A DNA stretch of 64,000 nt, from the NCBI GenBank assembly GCA_030018495.1, contig JASEFS010000006.1:1-64000 (forward strand). Reading direction: 5' to 3'. This DNA comes from Deltaproteobacteria bacterium (GTDB taxonomy: Bacteria; Desulfobacterota; Desulfobaccia; Desulfobaccales; 0-14-0-80-60-11). Below are positions 5,618 through 54,257 of the stretch, piece after piece (the stretch's first letter is position 1; each line of letters starts with the position of its first letter). A program made the translations under genes and the position numbers. The notes under the pieces were generated by a model. The model made no database searches and had not been told where the DNA came from. It was given only the letters and a program-made list of their open reading frames with translations.

Positions 5618-5750
5618 GTCAAGTCACCATTTGAGAGGATCAACACAAACCTTCCTGTGACGCCGGGCCCCAAGCCCTCGGCTGGCATGCTCAGATACTT
5701 ACCGGTTTTTGGGCTCTAAAGTTGGCAGGCGGGGGTTTCAGGTTGTCATT

Positions 5751-5779
5751 AAGATACTATAGTTGTTCAGAGACTTCAA
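5751..5779 (-). promoter_or_regulatory. Possible sigma-70-type promoter for the efflux operon
   Basis: On the minus strand TTGAAG is followed after 17 bases by TATCTT, in the 234-bp gap upstream of the adaptor gene. Each hexamer matches the consensus at four of six positions. The rest of this gap (5618-5851) holds no recognisable gene. Confidence 0.3.
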
Positions 5780-5851
5780 ATAGTTAGATAAAATAGGCGG
5801 CCTGTCCGTTAAGATTCCCTGAACCGATTCCCTGGAAAGACCGCCCTTCGG

Positions 5852-6475
5852 CTAGACTTCGTTTACCCCTTGATCGGTGATAGTCAGGAACTTAAAAGGC
5901 GGTCCGATGTACTCATCCTGGGAAGCCAGTTTTTCCATGGAGGTTTTGGCCAAAGCCACGACTTCGGACAAGGGCGCCAAAGCGGCCACCAATTGGTTCA
6001 ATTTGAATTCCAGGCCCATGCGGCGGGGCAGGGTGAAGATGTGAGTGACTTCGTTGGACTCGATTTTCGGTGGCTTGACCCGGTCCCAAATGATGAACAT
6101 CCGGTAGGGACGGTCCGGCGATTTCCGGGAAAATCCGGCCAACAGCAGATACATGTTGATAACCGGGTCCAGGGGCAGCTTTTCGCAGGCCTTGCGGAAA
6201 AATTCATCCACCTTGCCGGTGAAAAAAGGCGGCGCGGCCTCGATCAGGCCGTCGATATCGGTTATGTTCTCTCCCTTGACAAAATCTGCGAAATCTTTGG
6301 CCAGATCCTGGGCTTCCAGGGCCCCGGCTGAGGCGATCACCGCATGGGAGGCCAGAGGAATGAGGCGGTCCACCGAGATGAACTTTTGTTCTCCGGTAGG
6401 TGAGAAAAACTCCGCTCTGCTGTCAGTCCCTATTACGATTCCGCCGGCAGTGGCGCAGGCAATCAATTGTCCCAT
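5852..6475 (-). CDS. Proteasome-fold (Ntn-hydrolase-like) protein lacking the N-terminal Thr
   Basis: 207 residues. The N-terminus GGIVIGTDSRAEF corresponds to the conserved G-V-V-x-A-x-D-x-R strand of proteasome beta/HslV subunits. QKFISVDRLIPL corresponds to the Lys33 region, and ASAGALEAQDLAKDF to the following SG-x-x-x-D helix. Counting back from D18 and R20, the catalytic Thr1 position would be Gly2 here. A strong AGGAGGG ribosome-binding site 8 bases before the ATG makes a longer prepeptide unlikely. So the fold looks proteasomal, but the nucleophile is absent or different (Cys7 and Thr9 are the nearest candidates). No partner gene is adjacent. Function unknown; the family assignment rests on motif spacing only. 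Confidence 0.7.
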   Translation of the reverse strand: MGQLIACATAGGIVIGTDSRAEFFSPTGEQKFISVDRLIPLASHAVIASAGALEAQDLAKDFADFVKGENITDIDGLIEAAPPFFTGKVDEFFRKACEKLPLDPVINMYLLLAGFSRKSPDRPYRMFIIWDRVKPPKIESNEVTHIFTLPRRMGLEFKLNQLVAALAPLSEVVALAKTSMEKLASQDEYIGPPFKFLTITDQGVNEV

Positions 6476-45043: not shown

Positions 45044-45415
45044 ATGTATGAACTGAAAATAACCACCCAGTTTGCCGCGGCGCACCGCCTGGACAATTTC
45101 TACGGCAAATGCGAAGCCCTGCACGGCCACAACTGGAAGGTGGAAGTATATCTCCTGGGGGAGCAACTCGATGAAGCCGGCCTGCTCAAGGATTTCGGCG
45201 TGATAAAGGCCCGGACCAACGACATCCTCCAGGAAGTGGACCATAAGTTCCTCAACGAGTTGCCGGCTTTTAAGGACCAGAACCCTTCATCGGAAAACCT
45301 GGCCCGGTATCTTTTCGAGCGCCTGTCCGCCGCTCTCAACGACGGCGGCATCCGGGTGAGCAAAGTAAGCATCTGGGAGTCGGACACTTCCTGCGCTTCG
45401 TATTTTCCCGCCTGA
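45044..45415 (+). CDS. queD: 6-carboxy-tetrahydropterin synthase
   Basis: 123 residues. Converts dihydroneopterin triphosphate to 6-carboxytetrahydropterin in the 7-deazaguanine (queuosine) pathway. FAAAHRLDNF and the zinc/active-site GKCEALHGHNWKVEV with Cys-x-x-x-His-x-His are complete; VDHKFLNEL and SENLARYLFE follow. A QueC-like enzyme of different function is encoded at 50651. queE, queC and queF are not seen in the window. Confidence 0.94.
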   Translation: MYELKITTQFAAAHRLDNFYGKCEALHGHNWKVEVYLLGEQLDEAGLLKDFGVIKARTNDILQEVDHKFLNELPAFKDQNPSSENLARYLFERLSAALNDGGIRVSKVSIWESDTSCASYFPA

Positions 45416-48926: not shown

Positions 48927-50105
48927 GTGAATTTTGAAAGAATCAGGCCTCAGCTGACTTCCTTTTTCCGGACTCTTCGCCGCGAACTGGTGCTTCATCT
49001 CTTTTTCGGAGTGATTGGTCTGCTCTGTTTGGGGACTCTGGGCTTTTTCATAAGCGAAACCCATATCGACCCCTGGGAAACAAGGTTATGGAAGGCCGCC
49101 TGGTGGGCTCTGGTTACCCTGACAACCGTGGGCTACGGCGACGTGGTGCCGGTGACCGGAGCCGGCCGACTCGTAGGGGCAGGTTTAATGTTCGGCGGCC
49201 TCTTGATGCTGTCCCTTCTCACTGCTACAATAGCGTCGGTCTTCGTAGAGCGCAAATTTCGCCGGGAGCGGGGTTTGGAAGCCGTAAAAATGGAGCAGCA
49301 CATTCTCATCCTGGGCTGGAACCACGACGGCGTGGTATTTCTGGACCAATTGATGCGCCGCCTCTCCGGTGGCGTACCGGTAGTGCTGGTCAATCAGCTC
49401 CCGGCTGAGCAGTTGGAAAACTTGCGGGCCAAATACCCGGACCATGAAGTTGCTTATATTTGGGGAGATTTTTCCCGGGAAGACATCCTTTTAAAGGCCA
49501 ATGTGCGCCGGGCCGTGAAGGCCGTTATCCTGGGCGGCCGCCAGGCTGGCGAGACCGCGGCCCAGGTGGATCAGCGCATCCTGCTCACCGCCCTGACCCT
49601 CAAGTCGTTGAACCCGAAGCTCAGGATTCTGGCCGAACTGCATCTGCCGGAAAACCGTCTTTACCTGGAGAGGGCCGGAGTGGAGGAAGTCATGATCCGG
49701 GGTCAATACGACAGCTCTCTGATGGCCGGGGCCATCGCCGCTCCGGGTCTCTTCCGTCTCATGACCAGCCTGCTGACGGTGGAAGGCCCTGACCTGTGGG
49801 CCGTGGAAATCCCTCCCCGGTTTCACGGCCACCAGGTGAAGGAACTGGCCCAATATCTGAAAGAAAAACACCAGGCCCTGCTCATCGGCCTTTACAGTGA
49901 GGGCCGGGCCTTATCACTGGAGGACCTTCTTTCCGAAGAACCCTCGGCCATCGACGACTTCATCCGGCGCAAGTTCGAAGCCACCGGCATGACCCACCTT
50001 TTTGGCCGGGCCAAGGTGGATGTCCAGGTCAACCCTCCCGACGAGCAAATTTTGACGCCCCGCCAGCAGGCGGTGGTGATCGCCTCGGCAAGGCCTTTCC
50101 TTTGA
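48927..50105 (+). CDS. Two-TM potassium channel with TrkA-N domain
   Basis: 392 residues. An N-terminal TM, pore helix with the K+-selectivity filter TTVGYGD, and second TM (near 85-112: LVGAGLMFGGLLMLSLLTAT). A cytoplasmic RCK/TrkA-N domain follows (ILILGWNHDGVVFLDQL, VNQLPAEQLENL, LERAGVEEVMI). It is a bacterial MthK-like channel. The downstream gene (a separate cyclic-nucleotide-binding protein) overlaps its stop codon, so a two-chain regulated channel is likely. Confidence 0.9.
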   Translation: MNFERIRPQLTSFFRTLRRELVLHLFFGVIGLLCLGTLGFFISETHIDPWETRLWKAAWWALVTLTTVGYGDVVPVTGAGRLVGAGLMFGGLLMLSLLTATIASVFVERKFRRERGLEAVKMEQHILILGWNHDGVVFLDQLMRRLSGGVPVVLVNQLPAEQLENLRAKYPDHEVAYIWGDFSREDILLKANVRRAVKAVILGGRQAGETAAQVDQRILLTALTLKSLNPKLRILAELHLPENRLYLERAGVEEVMIRGQYDSSLMAGAIAAPGLFRLMTSLLTVEGPDLWAVEIPPRFHGHQVKELAQYLKEKHQALLIGLYSEGRALSLEDLLSEEPSAIDDFIRRKFEATGMTHLFGRAKVDVQVNPPDEQILTPRQQAVVIASARPFL

Positions 50106-50602
50106 TGATTGATCCAAGCTGCTTTCAGAAAATCTATCTCTTGCAGGATTTGAACGGGGAGGAACTTCAGGAACTGTTGGCCGCGGCCGGCTCCAGGCAG
50201 ATTGCCGCCGGGGAGACCGTCCTTCAGGAGGGGGAGCCAGGAGACAGTCTGTTCATCATGTGCCGGGGGGAAGTGGAAATCACCAAGCGCCTCACTCTGG
50301 TGTTGGATGAGGAGGTCCCCAAAGAGCGGGTGATGATCCGCTTAAAGGCTGAGGACGGCGTCTCCTTCGGGGAGATGGCCCTGCTGGAAAACGATGCCCG
50401 CACAGCCACCGTGACGGCCTTGACCGACTGCCAATTTCTGGAGCTTCGCCGTCAGGACTTCCTAAATTTCATCGACCGGAACCCCAAAACGGGATGCCGC
50501 CTGCTCCTGCGCTTGGCCCAACTTCTGTCCCAGCACCTGCGCAAAACCAACCAGGACGTGGTCAAACTCACCACCGCCCTGGCCATCGCCTTGGGTGGCT
50601 GA
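50105..50602 (+). CDS. Cyclic nucleotide-binding domain protein
   Basis: 165 residues made almost entirely of one cNMP-binding domain: GETVLQEGEPGDSLFIMCRG, then the phosphate-binding cassette FGEMALLENDARTATVTA with intact Glu and Arg. No DNA-binding or TM part follows; a C-terminal helix of about 40 residues (RLAQLLSQHLRKTNQDVV) remains. The ATG overlaps the channel stop. It probably gates the neighbouring channel in response to cAMP or cGMP. Alternatives: a regulator for another partner. Confidence 0.85.
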   Translation: MIDPSCFQKIYLLQDLNGEELQELLAAAGSRQIAAGETVLQEGEPGDSLFIMCRGEVEITKRLTLVLDEEVPKERVMIRLKAEDGVSFGEMALLENDARTATVTALTDCQFLELRRQDFLNFIDRNPKTGCRLLLRLAQLLSQHLRKTNQDVVKLTTALAIALGG

Positions 50603-50650: not shown

Positions 50651-51967
50651 TTAATTTAGGAAATAGGCCAGCCGTTTTTCCCCCTGCCTGAAAAAATCCG
50701 CGACTTCCTGAAACCCAGCCTCCAGGAGATGTCGGGCCTCTGAGAGAAAATCCGTCGACGCCGCCATCTTCCCTTCCAGCCAGAGCCGGGACTCCACCTC
50801 TTGCGGCGCGGTCTCCCAGGTTTTGAGCGCGATGAGCAAGGCCCTCAGGTCGCTCCCCTTGACCCGGTGGCGCACGATTCCCGGCTCGGACAGCACGTCC
50901 ACCCGGTAAGCGCGGCCGTCATCCCAGCCCAGGCGGTTCAGGGCCGCCCGCCGCATCAAACAGGGGTAGCAGTAGCCACAGGCCCCGGTGCCCCGCCCCT
51001 GCCAGCGCCCCACTTCGGGCCGGGCGCAGGAGATGGTCAAGGGAAAGAGCCGCTCCAGCAGATTGCGGTTGCGGCACTGCGCCAGCATTTCCCCTTTGCT
51101 TAGACCTTGGTAGGGATTGGCTAAAGTGTGGGAGATGCCGGCCTCCTGCCACAGACCGGTGAGTCCCGCCAGAAAATAGGGATGGGTGGTGCGGGTGCTG
51201 TAGGCGCCCAAACGGTTTAAAGTGAGCGGCGGATTCAGGCTGATCCAGCCGTTTTCCGGGACAACGACAGGCGTGTCCGGCCCGAAGGCGGCGGCTGCGG
51301 TCAGCCCCTGGGCCAGATAGAGCAGCGAGCGGCTGCGCAGGGTGAGCTCCCGGACTTCGGGGAATTGCACTCTTATCCCCAGATGATGCAGGCGGTCCGG
51401 GCCGTAATGCTCCCGCAGGGAAAAGGCCAGGCGCTGCTGGACGGAGGCAAGCTGGCCGAAATCATAGTGGCTCACCAAAATGAGGCGCTCCCCGCCTTCC
51501 AGCCTGTCAATGGCCCCTGCCAGCGAATCCAGACCGCCGGAGAAAAGAACCACCGCGTGGGGGAGCCAGTCATGAGGCCAGGGCGCGGCAAACCCCAAAT
51601 CCACAGGCGCCTCTCTGAAATTCAAGCTCCAGTTATCGCCGGTGAGAAAGTTCAGCAGCTGAGCCAAGCGGGCGGGTTGAACAGCCCACGAGGAAGAGGC
51701 CGGCAAAGACAGGGCTATGTCCCTGGTCCAGGCATCGGGCGAGGTGCTGCGGGGCACCAGCTTGTCTGCGGCCCAGACTGCCATGGCGGTCAGGAGAAAT
51801 TCGGCGACGGCCCCGGCTGGCAGGTGTGGCAAGGCGAAGAATTGTTCCAGGTTGTGATGGATGGGATACCCGGAAAGGCCCGGCTCATCAAGGTGGACCA
51901 CCGCGTCCGCGGCCCGGCGCGGCCGGCGCTTCTCTCCCGGAGCTTTCAGGAAAAGGCTGAAGGCCAT
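50651..51967 (-). CDS. QatC-like protein (QueC-family, anti-phage-type)
   Basis: 438 residues. The N-terminal part (about 1-130) has AVAEFLLTAMAVWAADKLVPR, DAWTRDIALSLPA and LLNFLTGDNWSLNFR, the pattern I recall from QatC of the Qat anti-phage system. The C-terminal part is a QueC-type ATP pyrophosphatase: VVLFSGGLDSLAGAID with the PP-loop and a zinc site of CGYCYPC with an upstream Cys. Normal QueC makes preQ0 but lacks the N-terminal extension. Related QueC-like enzymes in defence modules attach a deazaguanine to a protein N-terminus; that is known for type IV CBASS. Its partner gene lies just upstream, touching it. Confidence 0.82.
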   Translation of the reverse strand: MAFSLFLKAPGEKRRPRRAADAVVHLDEPGLSGYPIHHNLEQFFALPHLPAGAVAEFLLTAMAVWAADKLVPRSTSPDAWTRDIALSLPASSSWAVQPARLAQLLNFLTGDNWSLNFREAPVDLGFAAPWPHDWLPHAVVLFSGGLDSLAGAIDRLEGGERLILVSHYDFGQLASVQQRLAFSLREHYGPDRLHHLGIRVQFPEVRELTLRSRSLLYLAQGLTAAAAFGPDTPVVVPENGWISLNPPLTLNRLGAYSTRTTHPYFLAGLTGLWQEAGISHTLANPYQGLSKGEMLAQCRNRNLLERLFPLTISCARPEVGRWQGRGTGACGYCYPCLMRRAALNRLGWDDGRAYRVDVLSEPGIVRHRVKGSDLRALLIALKTWETAPQEVESRLWLEGKMAASTDFLSEARHLLEAGFQEVADFFRQGEKRLAYFLN

Positions 51968-52654
51968 TTATTTCTTGGTTGAATTGTCCATGCTGAACTG
52001 TTCCAGCATTTCTTTTAGCGCCTGCGTGACCCAGAGCCAGCCCTCCAGGCCCTGCCAATCCTCAGGCGGCGGGACCGTGCTCCCCTGAGCCTTTGCCGCG
52101 TTGACGATTTCTTTTTCAATTCCGGCCAGGCCATCTACTAAATGACGCCACCCGGCCGCGGCTCCCTCCAGGGGCTCCCCTAAGTCAAAAACGAGGCGGT
52201 GATAAAGGGCCGCGGCCAGAAATTTTTTCACGGCCCGAGACGGCTCATAACGCTGCTGGATAACCTCGGCAAGCTCTTGTACCAGGGCAGGGCGGAGTGC
52301 GGCTGCTTCCAGCCCGCCGTCTGCTTCCAGCCAGGTTGATGCTATCATGTGGGCGGCGGCCAGGGGAGCTTCAGAACGGGGCCGGCTCAGTTCGGAGGTG
52401 ACCGAAAATTCCGGGGCTTTGGCTTGGCAAAACTGCCCCAGTTTCCGGGCAATCCTGCGGGTCAGGCGGAAGGCCGCCAAGACGCCGCCGCTTTCCTGAT
52501 CCAGACCAGCTGCAAACGCGGCCACATAACGGGCCACCACTTCCCTCGCCTCAATCGAATGGGGATTTTCCGGGGAAAAATACCGCACCGTCGTAACCTT
52601 GGCCTGCCGCCAGAGCCGGGTGGTGGGTGCCCGGCGTGCCGTGGAAGTTCCCAT
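51968..52654 (-). CDS. QatB-like partner protein
   Basis: 228 residues starting MGTSTARRAPTTRLWRQAK. The MGTS opening is the hallmark I recall for QatB-type proteins, followed by helical segments (SPENPHSIEAREVVARYVAAF, AAAHMIASTWLE, RAVKKFLAAALYHRLVFDLG). No enzymatic motif. Its stop is directly next to the QatC-like start, so the genes are co-transcribed. No QatA ATPase or QatD TatD-type nuclease is found on either side. Gly2 is exposed after Met removal and would be a natural site for N-terminal modification (inference). Confidence 0.65.
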   Translation of the reverse strand: MGTSTARRAPTTRLWRQAKVTTVRYFSPENPHSIEAREVVARYVAAFAAGLDQESGGVLAAFRLTRRIARKLGQFCQAKAPEFSVTSELSRPRSEAPLAAAHMIASTWLEADGGLEAAALRPALVQELAEVIQQRYEPSRAVKKFLAAALYHRLVFDLGEPLEGAAAGWRHLVDGLAGIEKEIVNAAKAQGSTVPPPEDWQGLEGWLWVTQALKEMLEQFSMDNSTKK

Positions 52655-52931: not shown

Positions 52932-54257
52932 TTACTCCCCTTGGGCCAGGCGCTTGAGGCGGGTGACGCGCTCCCAGGAGAACTCCGGCCAGCAGGGAAA
53001 AATGGAGGGATTGTGGAATATCGGGTCGGCCTCCAGGTTATAGCGGGACGCGGCAACGGCCGTGGGCCAAAGGGCCGTGCCGGGAATGGGCGAATATTGA
53101 GCCAAAACCGGGGTGGCTCCCAGGGCGTGCACCCGCCGGATGGAGGCCTCCAGGTCGCGGTCGTCCTGCTCCGGCAGGCCTTCCAGCAGATAAACGCCGA
53201 TTTCCCTTTTGGCAAAACCGGCTTCTTTCAGGTGGGCCAGGGCTTCCTCCAGTTCGCCCGCAGCCAGTTTGCGGTCCAGTCGGGCCAAGCCGGTGGAGGT
53301 GGTTTCCACCCCCAAACGCAGGGTGGCAAACCGGGAGCGCTTGAGCCACCTGGCTACCTCGAGGGTAATAAACCGAGCGTGGACAGCGTTGGGCGTGTGG
53401 AAGCGGAAATTGCGGCCCCGGCGCGCCAATTCCTCCAGGATGACCAGGAGATGGCTGTCGGCCTGATAGAGCAGGGCGTCATCATAGAAGGCCACGTCCA
53501 TCAAACCCAGGCTGTCCTGCCAGTGCAGCAGCTCCTCCACCACCGCCTGGGGCCGGCGCGCCGCAAACCGGGGCTGAAGCAGCCGGGAGGCGCAGTAATC
53601 GCACTGAAACGGGCAGCCCCTGGAAGTGAGCAGGGGAATGAAGGGCAGGTGGGGAAGCAGATGCAAAGGCGGCCGGGGGAGAACATCAAAATCGCCGGAC
53701 TCATCATCAGGCTTCACCTTAATGCCGGTGAAATCTGCCAGATAAGACAGACATGCCTTATCGCCATGTCCCTGAATGACGATATCGGCCCCGGCCTGGC
53801 CGCGGGCATGGTCGGGGCAGAGGGTGGCATAGATTCCACCCAGGATCACCGGGGTGCGGGGGAAATATTGGCGCGCGATGGCAATGGCGGCCGCGACCCC
53901 GGGATACCAATAGGTCATGAGGGAGGTCACCAGGATGGCCGCGGGTTCAGGCAGGCGGGCGAGCCGGTTGCGGAACTCGCTTTCGGAAATCCCGTAGCGG
54001 CCGTAACGCCGGGGGAGGCCGTGCAGCGGCGGCGGAGTAGGGAGGATCACCTTGGGAAAGCGCCCGGTCCCGAAAGCGCCTGACCGGACCGCAGGCGCGC
54101 CCAGGCAGTCCAGCAGCGTGATCTCAAAACCGCAAGACTCCAGAAACCCGGCCAGATGGAGCAACCCCAGGGGCCGGGCGAAAAAATCATACGCCGCGAA
54201 ATCGTAAATCCAGGGATTGATCAAGAGGAGAGAGGGATTGGACGGGGATGGCATCAT
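52932..54257 (-). CDS. B12-binding domain radical SAM protein
   Basis: 441 residues. N-terminal B12-binding-like domain (LLHLAGFLESCGFEITLLDC, VILGGIYATLCPDHA). The radical SAM core from about 195 has CPFQCDYCASRL with CxxxCxxC and FYDDALLYQAD. A C-terminal region (LGVETTSTGLARLDRKLAAG, VYLLEGLPEQDDRDLE) follows. Family members catalyse methyl or other radical transfers, for example BchE-type or thioether reactions; the substrate is unknown. It overlaps tilS by four bases at its 5' end. Confidence 0.85.
   Translation of the reverse strand: MMPSPSNPSLLLINPWIYDFAAYDFFARPLGLLHLAGFLESCGFEITLLDCLGAPAVRSGAFGTGRFPKVILPTPPPLHGLPRRYGRYGISESEFRNRLARLPEPAAILVTSLMTYWYPGVAAAIAIARQYFPRTPVILGGIYATLCPDHARGQAGADIVIQGHGDKACLSYLADFTGIKVKPDDESGDFDVLPRPPLHLLPHLPFIPLLTSRGCPFQCDYCASRLLQPRFAARRPQAVVEELLHWQDSLGLMDVAFYDDALLYQADSHLLVILEELARRGRNFRFHTPNAVHARFITLEVARWLKRSRFATLRLGVETTSTGLARLDRKLAAGELEEALAHLKEAGFAKREIGVYLLEGLPEQDDRDLEASIRRVHALGATPVLAQYSPIPGTALWPTAVAASRYNLEADPIFHNPSIFPCWPEFSWERVTRLKRLAQGE

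Follow-up and report, generated by a model that had tools for sequence, protein, structure and literature searches.

QatB and QatC are encoded by two of the genes of the anti-phage system qatABCD. In Pseudomonas aeruginosa the two proteins form a 1:1 complex and, without QatA and QatD, QatBC protects Escherichia coli from lambda (PMC13279940). Protection is abolished by the G2D substitution in the P. aeruginosa QatB, or by mutation of either the SGGxDS motif or the Thr/Thr pair of QatC, and AlphaFold3 puts the N-terminus of QatB into the active site of QatC (PMC13279940). The two threonines replace the Tyr and Asp with which QueC and Cap9 bind 7-carboxy-7-deazaguanine (CDG); the authors of that work could not reconstitute the QatC reaction, and the substrate may differ from CDG (PMC13279940). 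That QatBC is the minimal defensive unit of qatABCD was shown in 2026, by removal of genes in the laboratory only (PMC13279940). Here we describe a pair of genes, qatB and qatC, in a stretch of 64,000 nucleotides (the window) from a genome of the order Desulfobaccales (GCA_030018495.1, 3.46 Mb in 63 contigs; contig JASEFS010000006.1). The pair would be a two-gene QatBC occurring in nature, in which QatC modifies Gly2 of QatB with ATP, most likely still in the service of defence, a reading to which we give a probability of about two in three. Its features are as follows.

51968..52654, minus strand: qatB-like gene, 228 residues, N-terminus MGTSTARRAPTTRLWRQAK, body predicted to be all-helical (11 helices)
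52643..52654, minus strand: MGTS codons, the proposed acceptor N-terminus (Gly2 once Met is removed)
50651..51967, minus strand: qatC gene, 438 residues, QueC-like ATP-pyrophosphatase with the QatC N- and C-terminal extensions

A preliminary description, made from the DNA letters alone, had read two abutting open reading frames (ORFs) here, and both are confirmed on the minus strand: the qatB-like gene ends in a stop codon that abuts the ATG of qatC with no gap, in the order qatB then qatC, and the motifs SGGLDS and CGYCYPC are both found in the 438-residue protein. This larger protein passes the NCBIfam model for QatC (NF041925, 344.7 bits with a cut-off of 280) and matches both the PADLOC QatC (PDLC02214, 7.5e-105) and a solved QatC chain from the PDB (9zee_B, 4.8e-68). 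It is also matched by PF06508 and shares with canonical QueC the SGGxDS ATP site and a Cys-rich zinc site. Unlike canonical QueC, it lacks the QueC substrate motifs and has extra N- and C-terminal regions, and the canonical QueC model TIGR00364 gives 15.4 bits, below its cut-off of 150.3. A separate canonical QueC, of 237 residues, is encoded on another contig of the same genome. On its sequence the larger protein is a true QatC, as had been proposed, and not a canonical QueC.

Residues were mapped through the alignment to 9zee_B, the numbering of which agrees with PMC13279940. Ser143, Asp147, Ser148, His167, Arg213, Thr258, Thr260, Cys314, Cys330, Cys333 and Cys336 of the window QatC, corresponding in order to S156, D160, S161, H180, R233, T278, T280, C334, C354, C357 and C360, which that paper showed to be required or to bind ligands, do not vary among 22 members of the order. 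The SGGxDS motif, the Thr/Thr that replaces the Tyr/Asp of QueC and the four zinc cysteines are therefore all present and invariant, as are the residues of the QatB-contact loop, R272/L273.

The smaller protein was approached through its relatives, 17 order QatB sequences in one alignment (A1) being the source of both a QatB profile and an AlphaFold2 model. The profile matches the solved QatB chains 9vll_A (1.9e-12) and 9zee_A (1.6e-8), and 12 of the 17 sequences match PADLOC QatB individually, the best at 2.4e-14. The model has a predicted local distance difference test score (pLDDT) of 86, and its two best fold matches in the PDB, as found by Foldseek, are 9y02_A and 9y01_A, the QatB of the solved QatB–QatC complex. 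These matches have a probability of 1.00 with a template modelling (TM) score of about 0.42–0.55 and a modest E-value of 5.6e-3, while the other matches listed reach a probability of at most 0.13. By profile and predicted fold, then, the smaller protein is a divergent QatB. Its having a clear unrelated family, one of three outcomes that would have spoken against the preliminary description, was not seen; nor did the larger protein group with canonical QueC, nor were qatA and qatD found beside the pair in close relatives.

The N-terminus is the most conserved part of QatB. MGTS, Arg7, Pro10, Trp15, Arg16, Ala18 and Lys19 are invariant in all 17 sequences, giving the motif MGTS..R..P....WR.AK. 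A1 has 20 invariant columns, 10 of them within its first 20, for which the mean majority fraction is 0.74 versus 0.44. The body diverges fast, with identities of 23–45% in A1. Conservation thus points to the first 20 residues of QatB as those that matter. Gly2 of the MGTS protein had been suggested as the acceptor, and the invariance of MGTS, together with the requirement for G2 in the P. aeruginosa QatB (PMC13279940), makes it a likely one. The order QatB departs from that of qatABCD in its divergent body and in its tail, which is short and carries a motif of its own (..AR[RK].P....WR.AK). Short-tailed QatB proteins are also seen on plasmids of Planococcus (L123) and Aliarcobacter (L122), where MGTS is likewise followed by Pro and Trp within about 15 residues; unlike the order pair these sit in complete qatABCD operons, and their QatC proteins are distant in the tree.

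The order was sampled with 29 genomes from two families and eleven genera. The gene for QatC is present in 23 of the 29, and in 20 of the 22 relatives that are at least 90% complete; the two exceptions among these 22 are G027 and G015. qatB and qatC are neighbours in 19 genomes, including the source genome; in one of the 19, G001, they lie across a contig break. The preliminary description had asked whether the pair is conserved alone across genomes, and it is. A further three genomes (G002, G006 and G009) retain both genes without linkage between them, which speaks for a joint function. G027, where qatC was not found, has a radical SAM gene and then qatB just where a contig ends. No match for qatB, qatC, the radical SAM gene or QatD/TatD was obtained in G015, and G014, G017, G019 and G020 are only 69–84% complete; in these five genomes the missing pair looks like an assembly gap, losses being unproven. 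Both qatB and an order-type qatC occur twice in the assembly of G009 (C194; C7/C212). The pair on C194 matches that of G003 with the same scores and identities and may be contamination, estimated at 6% for this assembly.

The QatC proteins of the order group together in a single clade (support 100/100), inside which the window's family is itself a clade. The locus is syntenic in both families, with the radical SAM gene, qatB and qatC lying beside genes for a cyclic-nucleotide-binding protein and a K+ channel; in one family tilS and genes for a response regulator, a histidine kinase, an M50 protease and a phosphomannomutase-like protein lie further out. The ratio of non-synonymous to synonymous substitution rates (dN/dS) for the genes of the pair is 0.18–0.37 in close pairs of genomes, indicating purifying selection, and for the neighbours it is 0.32 (tilS), 0.13–0.19 (radical SAM gene) and 0.13 (histidine kinase). 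The pair has the GC content of its surroundings, the region is uniform in base composition, and mobile genes are absent from the immediate flanks of the pair in the window. A recent horizontal island was considered and rejected, the even GC content, the synteny and the tree all speaking against it. Since both genes recur throughout the order with the catalytic residues and the N-terminal motif invariant, the pair is not there by chance. In Desulfobaccales qatBC is a near-universal, vertically inherited chromosomal pair, mostly at the same site, unlike qatABCD, which is patchy and borne on plasmids or islands. That the pair stands alone among ordinary neighbours had been recognised from the window; the order-wide vertical inheritance, which is the more important fact, had been missed.

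The order pair resembles the qatABCD core of P. aeruginosa and E. coli (PDB 9y01, 9y02, 9zee and 9vlk/9vll) in the sequence and catalytic residues of QatC, the fold of QatB, the MGTS start and the gapless order of B and C. It differs in lacking the other two genes. As had been noted, neither qatA nor qatD is found near the pair in the window, and in all 29 order genomes, the source genome included, nothing scores over the cut-off for QatA (NF041923) or QatD (NF041926); the matches of 55–108 bits to the QatD model that occur elsewhere look like ordinary TatD. Nor does either gene adjoin the pair in any relative examined. The two genes have therefore not merely been lost in one strain.

Outside the order the picture is different. 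QatC was found over the cut-off in 5 of 377 genomes from outside the order (in a phylum sample of 395), four of the five loci having A, B, C and D adjacent and the fifth (G044) C and D. All 17 plasmid loci examined have D, and in 15 of them A is annotated, either under that name or as a P-loop/KAP NTPase; of the remaining two, one has an A disrupted by an insertion sequence (IS) and the other an IS at the place of A. A plasmid of Paracoccus (L128) was considered as a second stand-alone qatBC and rejected, as it has an unannotated qatD ORF at 5648–6355 and an IS replacing qatA. In a published survey about 34% of the QatC cluster had qatA alongside (PMC13329287); other QatC genes without A therefore exist.

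How the pair might work can be set out by analogy with the studied systems. The ancestor of Desulfobaccales would have acquired the pair once, either without qatA and qatD or losing them soon afterwards, and would then have retained it as a chromosomal gene pair. QatC would bind QatB through its extensions and inserted loop and, after removal of Met1, the flexible tail of QatB would enter the active site of QatC, which would activate a carboxylate with ATP and couple it to the Gly2 amine. The next step, most likely in phage defence, would be carried out by QatB in its modified form or by the QatBC complex, without an ATPase or a nuclease. An ATP-dependent modification of Gly2 by QatC is most likely, because the residues required in the studied QatC are invariant here. 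For the attached group, the analogy with Cap9 of type IV CBASS (cyclic oligonucleotide-based antiphage signalling system) makes a nucleobase plausible; there, too, a QueC-like enzyme has a partner with an N-terminal Gly as acceptor, the partner starting MGGS. Cap9 differs from the window QatC in being a short QueC with Tyr/Asp and in being paired with an unrelated CD-NTase. Near the window pair there is no CD-NTase, the partner being QatB and the neighbours ordinary genes. We infer that the order orthologs behave like QatBC of P. aeruginosa and E. coli, and the attached group and the role in defence would follow in the same way. Defence is taken as the default role because the residues needed for it are kept and because the body of QatB diverges fast.

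Several observations weigh against this reading of a natural two-gene QatBC. The 228-residue protein of the window, taken alone, finds no match among the family libraries or solved chains (PADLOC, NCBIfam, Pfam and PDB). The basic patch with which the P. aeruginosa QatC contacts QatB, R407/R410/R414, aligns to T/T/E here; the C-terminal alignment is uncertain at this point, because the canonical QatC of G077 is also without the patch. G013 carries qatC, and a search for qatB in that genome found none. In G018 (L055:7372-7500) the qatB frame retains SARRAPTTWLWRRAK, with the MGT codons ahead of it replaced by unrelated sequence, which is either damage to the start site or an assembly fault. Defence genes are usually patchy, and near-universal vertical inheritance is unusual for them, which makes a domesticated use outside defence a serious rival.

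Such a use would be a housekeeping one, with QatC modifying the N-terminus of QatB for a cellular function in stress, DNA or membrane physiology. Although we judge it less likely than defence, it would account for a pair that is near-universal in the order, syntenic and vertically inherited, that matches its surroundings in GC content without mobile genes in its immediate flanks, and whose genes are retained even when unlinked; qatC also evolves like its neighbour tilS (dN/dS of 0.32 versus 0.32 for G004/G011). On the other hand QatC retains the residues required for defence in the studied systems, the fast divergence of the QatB body is compatible with an arms race, and no functional partner specific to the order emerged, the neighbouring radical SAM gene being phylum-wide and separating from the pair. 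A more specific form of the idea, which we put forward tentatively, is that an anti-phage tagging core has been domesticated throughout the order, QatC conjugating a small molecule to Gly2 of QatB, constitutively or conditionally, for a purpose other than defence; this would be the first such use of QatBC.

A decaying remnant of qatABCD, in which A and D are lost and B and C are non-functional leftovers, is very improbable. Adjacent qatA and qatD are the rule outside the order, and the missing qatB of G013 and the damaged start in G018 would fit, but purifying selection is seen in all close pairs, and the catalytic residues are invariant in 22 members from two families and MGTS in 17. That QatC is a second QueC of the queuosine pathway, with the proximity of queD being functional, is scarcely credible, for although PF06508 matches and queD is 5 kb off, TIGR00364 gives only 15 bits, the Tyr/Asp of QueC has become Thr/Thr, the 237-residue canonical QueC lies on another contig, no queD is found near the pair in the sister family and E. 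coli QatC does not complement a queC deletion (PMC13329287).

As a natural minimal version of a system with protein-tagging chemistry, the pair would mean that evolution has kept alone, across two families and eleven genera, the very unit that was cut out in the laboratory. It would also provide many natural orthologs that appear to work without QatA and QatD, as material for finding the attached group, and it raises the question of why a defence module would become a near-universal core pair of one order.

The flanks of the pair in the window are ordinary genes, encoding a cyclic-nucleotide-binding protein, a K+ channel, a B12-binding radical SAM protein and TilS, and scans for promoters and terminators at the locus gave nothing above chance. 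Two neighbours were considered as being linked to the pair.

52932-54257: B12-binding radical SAM gene, best named-family score 62.8 bits with a cut-off of 360
45044-45415: queD, about 5.2 kb from the pair, TIGR03367 98.5 bits with a cut-off of 89.25

The radical SAM gene adjoins qatB in both families, yet a trio was rejected. Of the 69 genomes that were searched, 46 have an ortholog of this gene, and many of the 46 belong outside the order and lack QatBC; in G005, G006 and G002 the gene lies apart from the pair. The protein is conserved across the phylum and only distantly like named families. The position given for queD in the preliminary description is correct; as evidence of linkage it was rejected, queD belonging to a block conserved in one family only. 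In the sister family the pair has no queD nearby. At 48927-50602 of the window a K+ channel-like gene is followed directly by a gene with a cyclic-nucleotide-binding domain, and this duo is conserved next to qatC in members of both families.

When viral contigs were scanned with the QatC alignment, most of the matches belonged to another class, QatC-related proteins of about 600–740 residues with an extra C-terminal region. No QatA, QatB or QatD was detected at these loci with our profiles. Most loci whose contig extends far enough upstream have, directly before the long protein, a protein of about 260–280 residues starting MGHxxLGxLP.

L044:8168-11033 (G042), L181:3066-5713 and most of L175-L249 (IMG/VR contigs): MGHxxLGxLP protein with long QueC/QatC-like protein

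The three long proteins tested match PADLOC QatC over their N-terminal part only, and the extra C-terminal region of one has weak helix-turn-helix matches. For the two MGHxxLGxLP partners tested, neither PADLOC nor NCBIfam gave a match and Pfam gave none of significance; one of the two had no plasmid match. Judged from their sequences, the long protein and its upstream partner may form a second, unnamed conjugation pair of a QueC-like enzyme and a Gly2 partner, and we infer that proteins of this long type may make up part of the qatA-less remainder of the published survey. Another partial Qat arrangement was seen on the IMG/VR viral contig L242, where QatC and QatD occur with an upstream protein starting MGTSKRKLSSDIKK and no match to QatA.
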